64,000 bases of DNA, from assembly GCF_002135375.1 (NCBI RefSeq), contig NZ_NEGH01000002.1, positions 372,001 to 436,000 on the forward strand, written 5' to 3'. The translations under genes and the position numbers were made by a program. Shown piece by piece: positions 14,123 through 21,670 of this stretch. The notes beneath the pieces are model-generated. The model was not told the DNA's origin. It saw nothing but the letters and a program-made list of their open reading frames with translations, and did no database searches. Within the stretch, counting starts at the first letter, position 1, and each line of letters opens with the position of its first letter. The DNA comes from Acinetobacter sp. ANC 4558. GTDB lineage: Bacteria > Pseudomonadota > Gammaproteobacteria > Pseudomonadales > Moraxellaceae.

Positions 14123-14197
14123 AGGGGTATCGCCAAGTGGTAAGGCACCGGGTTTTGATCTCGGCATCCGTTGGTTCGAATCCAGCTACCCCTGCCA
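14123..14197 (+). tRNA. tRNA-Gln (TTG), copy 1
   Basis: A 75-nt cloverleaf with acceptor stem AGGGGTA/TACCCCT, discriminator G, encoded CCA and anticodon TTG at 14155-14157. It begins one base after the ispE stop codon. Confidence 0.95.
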
Positions 14198-14221
14198 TTT
14201 TCACCTGTAGATGTATGTATT

Positions 14222-14296
14222 AGGGGTATCGCCAAGTGGTAAGGCACCGGGTTTTGATCTCGGCATCCGTTGGTTCGAATCCAGCTACCCCTGCCA
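14222..14296 (+). tRNA. tRNA-Gln (TTG), copy 2
   Basis: Identical in sequence to copy 1, including acceptor stem AGGGGTA/TACCCCT and encoded CCA, and separated from it by 24 bases. Confidence 0.95.
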
Positions 14297-14312
14297 TCTT
14301 ACATCATCCAAT

Positions 14313-14387
14313 AGGGGCGTCGCCAAGTGGTAAGGCACCGGGTTTTGATCTCGGCATCCGTTGGTTCGAATCCAGCCGCCCCTGCCA
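14313..14387 (+). tRNA. tRNA-Gln (TTG), copy 3
   Basis: Same body as copies 1 and 2, but the acceptor stem is AGGGGCG/CGCCCCT: two base pairs changed on both strands, keeping pairing. CCA is encoded. Confidence 0.95.
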
Positions 14388-14439
14388 TTTACTAAGTACA
14401 AGACAGAGCATTTGTTTACTAACTTCATGTTAATTCAAC

Positions 14440-14468
14440 TTGACAGAAAGGCGTAAAAATATTAAAGT
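14440..14468 (+). promoter_or_regulatory. Promoter for tRNA-Gln copy 4 and prs
   Basis: TTGACA (14440-14445), a 17-base spacer and TAAAGT (14463-14468) form a good sigma70 promoter. Predicted initiation is a few bases before the tRNA at 14480, and the only gap to prs is 37 bases, so prs is probably expressed from here as well. Confidence 0.7.
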
Positions 14469-14479
14469 TCTGCCGCATT

Positions 14480-14554
14480 AGGGGCGTCGCCAAGTGGTAA
14501 GGCACCGGGTTTTGATCTCGGCATCCGTTGGTTCGAATCCAGCCGCCCCTGCCA
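14480..14554 (+). tRNA. tRNA-Gln (TTG), copy 4
   Basis: Identical to copy 3 (acceptor AGGGGCG/CGCCCCT, encoded CCA). It is set apart from copies 1-3 by 92 bases holding its own promoter and lies immediately upstream of prs. Confidence 0.95.
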
Positions 14555-20061: not shown

Positions 20062-20727
20062 TTAAAATGGTACTTGAATATTAATTTCAACTGGTAATCC
20101 ACTTAAAGGCTGAGTGAATGCTAAATAATTAGCATGAAGCGCCATTCTATTTAATCGACTCTGCTTTGGGTCTGGATGATAAAGTTTATCCCCTGTAATT
20201 GGATGACCAATATGCATCATATGCACACGAAGTTGATGTGATCGTCCAGTTATTGGAGTTAATAAAACACGTGTAATCGCTTCAATGTGATTATATTCTA
20301 AAGCTCGATACAAAGTTTTTGCAGGTTTTCCTAATTCATAATGCACGATTTGCCTTGGTCTATTTTCCCAATCTGTAATTAAAGGTACTTCTACACTTCC
20401 CTCATTTTCAAGTTGCCCTTGTACCAATGCCGTATAATTTTTGCTTACAGTCCGTGCTTGAAACATTTTACTAACTGCAACCTCTGCATCTCGATGTTTT
20501 GCAAACATCAAAATGCCTGAAGTTGCCATATCTAAACGATGAGTGATTTTTGCCAACGGATATTTTTCTAATACTCTTAAATAGGCACTATCATGATGTT
20601 CTGGTAAACGTCCTGGTACTGACAATAATCCTGCTGGTTTTTCAATGACAACCAAGTCTTCATCCTCATAGATAATTACTAAAGGTTCTTGAGGTGGCAT
20701 ATACACAAAATGATCATCTAATGACAT
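20062..20727 (-). CDS. rluA: RluA-family pseudouridine synthase
   Basis: A 221-residue pseudouridine synthase without an S4 domain, like E. coli RluA, which modifies 23S rRNA U746 and tRNA U32. The catalytic motif HRLDMATSGILMFAK (Asp near residue 66) is of the RluA type rather than RluC/D (KDTSG), and GRSHQLRVH is present near residue 163. The exact targets are inferred from family. It ends about 160 bases from rraB and has a long upstream region containing a possible RNA. Confidence 0.9.
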   Translation of the reverse strand: MSLDDHFVYMPPQEPLVIIYEDEDLVVIEKPAGLLSVPGRLPEHHDSAYLRVLEKYPLAKITHRLDMATSGILMFAKHRDAEVAVSKMFQARTVSKNYTALVQGQLENEGSVEVPLITDWENRPRQIVHYELGKPAKTLYRALEYNHIEAITRVLLTPITGRSHQLRVHMMHIGHPITGDKLYHPDPKQSRLNRMALHANYLAFTQPLSGLPVEINIQVPF

Positions 20728-20934
20728 GAAAAAAACAGCATAAAATAGAAAGATGGCAAAGTATCAAGAGCATGAATGCCTGTCAAATGAAGAAGTAAAA
20801 AACATGGTTTTAGAGGAAATATAAATTGATATTTTAAAAGTAGATATGTTGTTATAAGTAGTTAATTTTTAAAGGTGTTGGGAAAAACGTTAAATTTGTT
20901 TACTTCAACTATCATCACTTTGTAAGTTATGATC

Positions 20935-21110
20935 CTATTGCCTATAAACTTCTGGTTTATAGCGTTCTAAGCCGAATCGAGACCTTTTGGGTAAGTACTG
21001 CTCTCGCGTTTTGCGCCGCTCACAGCATGCTACTCTTTTCGATTCCCGTCACACCCTTGAGATATATAATAACGAGAGTCGATTGGAATTAATTACCGAA
21101 GATTTAGATT
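20935..21110 (+). ncRNA. Possible structured RNA upstream of rluA
   Basis: The 580-base gap between rluA and the zinc-ribbon gene contains about 150 bases that are clearly less AT-rich than the rest and rich in pairing. CTATAAAC/GTTTATAG makes an 8-bp hairpin at about 20943-20963, GAATCGA (20974-20980) can pair with TCGATTC (21039-21045), with further short stems inside, and a T-rich tract follows from about 21108. A weak promoter (TATGAT at 20928-20933) lies just upstream. No ORF is evident. It does not show the diagnostic motifs of tmRNA, 4.5S RNA or, as far as I can tell, 6S RNA. Strand and ends are uncertain. Confidence 0.4.
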
Positions 21111-21231
21111 TTTTTGTTTTTTTTAATATTTTTTTCCCAAAAAAATAAATATTGAAGAATTATTTTTCATATTCAAAAGATATTTAATAATATTTTAGAT
21201 ATTATCGCTCATTTAAAGAAATTTTATTCAA

Positions 21232-21267
21232 AAAAAATTAAAAGCCCTATGGGATACATAGGGCTTT
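21232..21267 (-). terminator. Terminator after the zinc-ribbon gene
   Basis: AAAGCCCTAT and ATAGGGCTTT form a 10-bp stem; on the minus strand it is followed by TAATTTTTTTTG. A smaller hairpin, CAGAAATCCTG, lies between it and the gene. Confidence 0.8.
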
Positions 21268-21307
21268 AATTGAAAAACAGGATTTCTGTTTTTTTTATTC
21301 GTGTTAT

Positions 21308-21451
21308 TTAAGCAACCATATTTTTATATTGAGTGCATAAACATTTGGTACACGGCGGTAAGCGGTCTGTACCAATTTCTAGGTAGACACGATGTCCACA
21401 TTTCACACAAAAATAAAAGCCTGTTCCGGGTCTTTCGCCAGCAGTTACCAT
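21308..21451 (-). CDS. Small zinc-ribbon protein, 47 residues
   Basis: A short minus-strand gene encoding MVTAGERPGTGFYFCVKCGH and onward, with two metal-binding pairs, C15-x2-C18 and C34-x2-C37 (plus C39), and the conserved-looking TAGERPG start and RLPPCTKC segment of small bacterial zinc-ribbon/rubredoxin-like proteins. GGAG lies 7 bases before the ATG and a strong terminator follows, so it is a genuine monocistronic gene although very short. Its cellular role is unknown to me. Confidence 0.85.
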   Translation of the reverse strand: MVTAGERPGTGFYFCVKCGHRVYLEIGTDRLPPCTKCLCTQYKNMVA

Positions 21452-21670
21452 CTTTTTTCTCCATGTGGTTTAGAAATGGTAGAGCTAGTATATATAATTT
21501 ATGATGAATGTCTATTGATCATTTCGACAAATGATAATGAAATTTCGGCTAAGTACTATTTCGTAGAGAAATTAATCTATCAGAAAGCTTTTTAGATATA
21601 AACTAAATAAAAAACCAAATACTACTCCTCTCATGTCCCCCATATTAAAAAAAACATATAAACCACTACA
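21452..21670. other. Intergenic, no gene seen
   Basis: AT-rich sequence between the zinc-ribbon gene and the acnD terminator. It holds the zinc-ribbon promoter region; plus-strand open frames here overlap the zinc-ribbon gene and lack ribosome-binding sites. Confidence 0.5.

Follow-up and report, generated by a model that had tools for sequence, protein, structure and literature searches.

Between rluA and a gene for a short zinc-ribbon protein, the DNA analysed here (a stretch of 64,000 nucleotides from Acinetobacter sp. ANC 4558, hereafter the window) has a gap that is A+T-rich apart from one block peaking at 53% G+C, which raises the question of what this block is, from which strand it is read and whether it serves the genes beside it. 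A preliminary description, made from the sequence alone, had taken it for a possible unannotated structured RNA at 20935-21110, on the plus strand, with a weak promoter in front and a T tract behind. The compositional contrast is real: the 60-base segments 20960-21019 and 20990-21049 have 53% G+C, and the gap elsewhere 10-35%. The reported absence of an ORF also held, each of the six frames being stopped in at least 80 of 85 related copies, and so did the lack of tRNA, tmRNA and SRP RNA motifs, since no Rfam 15 family, 6S RNA (RF00013) included, reached its gathering cut-off on the element. Decayed coding DNA is ruled out by covariation and by stop codons, which most copies have in all frames. 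As detailed below, covariation and genus-wide presence give strong support to a structured RNA, while its strand has to be reversed and its interval, which was too short, redrawn to about 20869-21061 for the RNA, with a promoter-like block reaching to about 21101.

When 20890-21130 was used as a DNA query, 54 of 96 genomes gave a match: 54 of 60 from the genus (the window's own included) and none of 36 others. Of 348 family genomes searched with a covariance model (R1), 167 matched, all of them among the 175 from Acinetobacter and none among the 173 from 15 other genera; a second model (R2) gave two weak matches among the eight genus genomes missed by R1, bringing the total to 169 of 175 and leaving six with no match to either model. 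Among 293 genomes drawn from the order, in a search with stricter filters that may lose weak matches, the model matched just the window's own genome and a second one from the genus, and E. coli had no match. Species with matches include A. pittii, A. nosocomialis, A. calcoaceticus, A. baylyi, A. soli and A. baumannii. As far as these searches reach, the RNA is specific to Acinetobacter. The window's own genome has one copy, and two or three were present in all 22 genomes chosen for a copy-number check; tandem copies are mostly 0.5-1.7 kb apart, and a diverged second locus precedes a gene of the Lrp/AsnC family. The counts over 85 copies given here come from 70 chosen sources, with a 79-base fragment of L074 removed and second-locus copies deliberately sought, and are therefore not population frequencies.

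Carriage by phages or plasmids was considered and rejected. A 24-base pattern had no match in viral contigs; two 128-kb contigs filed as 'phage' do match, and the one inspected (CAKLQF020000013) has rluA and other bacterial genes. Three matching records filed as plasmids (NZ_CP077849, NZ_CP104448 and NZ_CP064203) are A. baumannii sequences of 3.7-4.1 Mb that nevertheless carry rnpB and 6S RNA. All of these look like chromosomal sequence.

For consensus folding, an alignment of 45 distinct copies was made in each orientation. RNAalifold gave the minus strand -18.32 kcal/mol with 38 pairs, of which 19 had two-sided changes in at least one copy, versus -3.6 kcal/mol with 18 pairs, six changed on both sides, for the plus strand. 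Near-identical copies had been removed, as had one 127-base copy before the sequence-only alignment A1; seed A3 kept 41 of 45, those of L063, L064 and L050 and one from L040 being dropped. A hand-refined structure of 50 pairs, scored on 41 copies aligned by sequence only, had 97.3% standard cells and two-sided changes in 24 pairs, where shuffles gave 6.7 and slid controls 10 at most; refinement on the same 41 copies favours the structure in this score. When 86 copies (84 distinct rows), diverged ones outside the seed among them, were aligned to the model, in an alignment that leans towards the structure, 96.4% of pair cells were standard, 41 of the 50 pairs had two-sided changes (21.3 in shuffles, no more than 22 in slid controls), and such changes occupied 415 cells (92.7 in shuffles, no more than 85 when slid). 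Compensatory changes in homologous Acinetobacter gaps, which the preliminary description had named as a check, thus go beyond both kinds of control. At paired positions G-U cells far outnumber A-C cells (514 versus 22), and the RNA is therefore the minus strand.

With its correct ends, the window copy folded to -48.9 kcal/mol (z -2.90), none of 200 shuffles being as low, and this single-sequence fold contains P1, P2, P3, P3b, P4, P4b, P6 and P7, P5 being absent. Of two diverged copies folded alone, L155 had a z of -2.04 and L149 was weakly more stable than its shuffles (z -1.39, 19/200). Mutual information in A1 was noisy, with 4 of the top 25 column pairs in the structure and two further top pairs that would lengthen P6 and P7; in alignment A4, which was fitted to the structure, the top 14 column pairs all fall within it. 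Altogether, the element is almost certainly a conserved structured RNA.

In its overall architecture, P1 joins both ends of the RNA and encloses two branched domains, P3 and P5 (Table 1). The 8-bp hairpin noted at the outset, CTATAAAC (20942-20949) with GTTTATAG (20955-20962), is present and corresponds to arm P6 in the structure derived by comparison. GAATCGA (20974-20980) and TCGATTC (21039-21045) are also there, and their region does pair, as P3, but not in the register first proposed: the one chosen from the alignment has CGAA/UUCG and GAG/CUC, read on the minus strand. The second TCGATT, at 21079, for which a competing pairing had been considered conceivable, lies outside the RNA and within its predicted promoter region, and no sign of such a pairing was noticed.

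Table 1. Position of the RNA, its helices and adjacent features in the window.
Feature	Position	Strand	Basis or remark
Structured RNA (extent of model match)	20869..21061	minus	model R1 204.5 bits, covariation, single-sequence fold z -2.90
Closing stem P1, 5' strand	21051..21058	minus	pairs with 20871-20878; 7 pairs in comparison, 8 in window-copy fold
Closing stem P1, 3' strand	20871..20878	minus	comparison and window-copy fold
Stem P2, 5' strand	21045..21046	minus	pairs with 20881-20882; 98.8% of cells paired, 84 rows
Domain P3	20973..21041	minus	21033-21041 with 20973-20981; comparison and single-sequence fold
P4 arm within domain P3	21023-21027 with 20996-21000	minus	comparison and single-sequence fold
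P4b within domain P3	21006-21016	minus	comparison and single-sequence fold
P3b within domain P3	20982-20992	minus	comparison and single-sequence fold
Domain P5, containing P6 and P7	20902..20972	minus	20964-20972 with 20902-20909; comparison only
Hairpin P6, CTATAAAC/GTTTATAG	20942..20962	minus	98.0% of cells paired; 6/8 pairs changed on both sides
Hairpin P7, window loop UACAA	20911..20933	minus	8/8 pairs changed on both sides
-10-like hexamer TATTAT	21066..21071	minus	by eye from upstream alignments
Conserved upstream box GGTAATTAATTCC	21085..21101	minus	upstream alignments; TTAGGGAAAwAATyCC-like elsewhere
rluA	20062..20727	minus	ORF; Pfam PseudoU_synth_2; 142 bases downstream of RNA
Zinc-ribbon gene, 47 residues, upstream of RNA	21308..21451	minus	ORF; Pfam DUF1451 27.5 bits, cut-off 26.1
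Intrinsic-terminator-like site between zinc-ribbon gene and RNA	21241..21267	minus	pattern scan

The four hairpin loops of the window copy (CAAAA, CAAAA, CAGAA and UACAA) all have the form YANAA. Across the 85 copies this form occurs on P3b in 83, P6 in 70, P7 in 55 and P4b in 50, and it is borne by all four hairpins in 29 copies, three in 32, two in 22 and one in 2. The P4 arm can be exchanged: in 26 of the 85 copies, all diverged (L161-L164, L148-L159, L166 and L167 among them), its place is taken by another hairpin with GGGAGA, so that the loops are not all common to every copy. This motif is reminiscent of CsrA-type sites. An extra GGAAC...GUUCC hairpin beside P1 is complete in L063 and L064, and its 3' half is found in four copies.

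Upstream alignments, read by eye, revealed a box of the type listed in Table 1, followed after about nine bases by a TAnnnT hexamer, which in the window ends seven bases ahead of the foot of P1. Simple scoring, whose per-position profile drew on 23 copies only, located the box in 60 of 85 copies at 36-38 bases upstream of the model start and left 25 unplaced. The RNA would thus have a promoter of its own, and the layout of this block suggests a transcription start at 21057/21058, the foot of P1. No TTGACA-like hexamer stands at the usual distance from the -10-like hexamer, and an activator or another sigma factor is therefore possible. On the upstream side, the terminator-like site found by pattern scan separates the RNA from the zinc-ribbon gene. 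The 3' end would have to arise by processing or by a type of termination not recognisable here, and the exact limits of a transcript are predictions. Farther downstream, perfect tandem repeats of 7-8 bases, in 5 to 15 units, occur within 400 bases of the RNA in L065, L058, L167 and L136, sometimes beginning a few bases past it. Upstream of an RNA copy in L067 (1851-1923) there is a near-threshold match to RF02064 STnc370 (51.5 bits, cut-off 54), perhaps a mere terminator hairpin. Elsewhere in the window, four tRNA genes with near-equal scores stand in tandem at 14123-14551.

How the RNA acts was judged mainly from the genes around its copies. As a cis-acting leader, riboswitch- or attenuator-like, it would control the window's rluA, for which the preliminary description had mentioned a minus-strand leader as an alternative, a DUF2867 gene in the A. 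baumannii group and the Lrp/AsnC-family gene at the second locus. In 80 of 85 copies the next ORF of at least 80 residues runs in the direction of the RNA; at the Lrp-type locus 16 of 19 copies have a spacing of 51-98 bases to the gene (a start-codon pattern gives 54-112 bases for 17 copies), and in L041 the RNA is 44 bases ahead of the DUF2867 gene; and the pattern scan of 20700-21500 found no terminator-like site between RNA and rluA. However, upstream genes are likewise mostly on the same strand (72/85), so that gene direction alone proves little, and five copies are followed by a gene on the opposite strand, which Pfam supports in three. The downstream genes are, moreover, mutually unrelated (Lrp 19, RluA 10, a 148-residue family without name or Pfam match 9, DUF6868 7, DUF1003 6, DUF2867 1, SIMPL 1, other 32), spacing outside the Lrp-type locus is scattered, mostly over 90-370 bases, tandem copies in L037 and L158 have no gene of at least 80 residues in between, and no common switch from one fold to another was noticed when the spacers were viewed by eye. 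Only at the Lrp-type locus, which was deliberately sought out and accounts for 19 of the 85 copies, is the gene link consistent, and genome G106 has three copies of which none is immediately upstream of the Lrp-type gene. Given the short Lrp-type spacing and the absence of a terminator-like site, a leader is a possible, if rather unlikely, explanation. We favour instead a stand-alone structured RNA gene on the minus strand, which probably acts in trans, because copies precede unrelated genes, occur in tandem and sometimes have no same-strand gene next to them; the opposite-strand next genes and the G106 copies away from the Lrp-type gene argue for the same. At the rluA locus of relatives (L033-L040), RNA copies alternate with DUF1003, DUF6868-SIMPL and 148-residue-family modules in an order that varies by species, as if gene modules had been shuffled between them.

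Two other explanations deny that a minus-strand RNA is involved. Were the palindromes a DNA-level element unused as RNA, for example a recombination or duplication hot spot, the tandem copies and varying gene orders near rluA would be accounted for; but DNA pairing would not prefer G-T over A-C by strand, so that the G-U excess counts against it, as do the covariation of several helices and the fixed distance of the promoter-like block in most copies, and we consider it very improbable. A plus-strand RNA, possibly 6S, as the preliminary description had it, draws on complementary segments that look the same on both strands, and is hardly conceivable given the consensus folding and the pairing bias described above. 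The plus strand of 20935-21130 had a fold z of -0.08, with 91 of 200 shuffles folding equally well, and scans of 20700-21500 detected neither the plus-strand promoter that had been placed ahead of the block nor a stem preceding the T tract behind it. The genuine 6S RNA of this genome, the RF00013 match, lies on another contig (G000:C1:410614-410800, 108.7 bits).

The stand-alone RNA may work by binding a protein through its repeated YANAA loops, in a scaffold- or sponge-like manner with repeated sites. We offer this as a guess, with a smaller chance of being right than wrong, because the same pentaloop recurs on several hairpins in most copies. Our confidence accordingly declines from a discrete transcript to action in trans and from there to protein binding. 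As to RluA, its substrate consensus is a 7-base loop, UUXXAAA, in the accessible text of PMC7822408. The P7 loop fits it in 54 of 85 copies, more often in high-scoring (40/54) than in diverged ones (14/31; Fisher p 0.01, uncorrected for relatedness), although a general YANAA loop with an added U-A pair would give such a fit as well. It is conceivable, but improbable, that this genus-wide RNA, whose P7 hairpin would have the loop form reported for RluA recognition and whose main locus adjoins rluA, mimics tRNA anticodon arms and is modified by RluA or titrates it; if so, an RNA-modifying enzyme would be coupled to a decoy encoded beside its own gene.

RNAs whose fold is preserved throughout a genus usually serve something basic, and this one, present in 169 of 175 Acinetobacter genomes and with matches named A. 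baumannii, A. pittii and A. baylyi, the last a laboratory species, has no family in Rfam 15. Its function can be tested directly with the covariance model, the predicted start and the paralogs at defined places; left without annotation, mutant and transcript data for this gap risk being taken for rluA biology.

In Rfam 15 scans of five related loci with E up to 1, no family reached its cut-off on the RNA copies, and on the window's element itself, with E up to 10, there was one sub-threshold overlap, with AdoCbl-II on the plus strand (15.6 bits, cut-off 36.5, E 2.7). Other small RNAs of Acinetobacter that likewise lack annotation are AbsR11/25/28, AbcR200 and art1-art78 (PMC5320573, in its accessible part). 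The AbsR probes and AbcR200 primers have at most 8 consecutive bases in common with two copies of the A. baumannii group. In two A. baumannii records, the element is 771 and 785 kb from rnpB and on the same strand, with absR28 farther along and order and orientation kept; in a third, rearranged record it is inverted and 977 kb from rnpB. Carried over to AB5075, using what we take to be the length of its chromosome, the element would be at ~3.88-3.89 Mb on '<', which is only an estimate because of the rearranged third record. The accessible part of Table 1 in PMC5320573 has no '<' RNA at that estimated position, the nearest entry being art77, 16-30 kb off and on '>'; by this estimate, which falls short of proof, no listed art RNA coincides with the element. 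The available text of seven further papers (PMC11472050, PMC12802169, PMC3976366, PMC5538643, PMC5094136, PMC2864571 and PMC11869524) mentions no rluA-linked RNA, and in that of three structured-RNA discovery papers (2019, PMC6429828; 2021, PMC8632094; 2024, PMC11109978) the word 'Acinetobacter' has 0 occurrences. Going by Rfam 15 and the literature searched, the RNA has not been described so far.

The element is a new family of structured RNA, probably of the known stand-alone kind, with an architecture that could be assigned to no Rfam family. It is like 6S RNA (RF00013) in its similar length and in having its ends joined by a stem, and 6S RNA, being a stand-alone RNA of the titrating kind, offers a possible parallel; 6S RNA is, however, one long hairpin with a central bulge, whereas the Acinetobacter element is branched. 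Its repeated hairpin loops resemble those of protein-titrating sponge RNAs of the CsrB/RsmZ type. The loops of the latter carry GGA, in contrast to YANAA here: the several GGA loop motifs of a CsrA/RsmA sponge are absent from the window-copy loops, and GGGAGA occurs only in the exchanged P4 arm of the 26 diverged copies. With orphan structured RNAs from comparative genomics, the element shares its recognition by covariation and its conserved core with an exchangeable arm, differing from them in that it is found here in a single genus.
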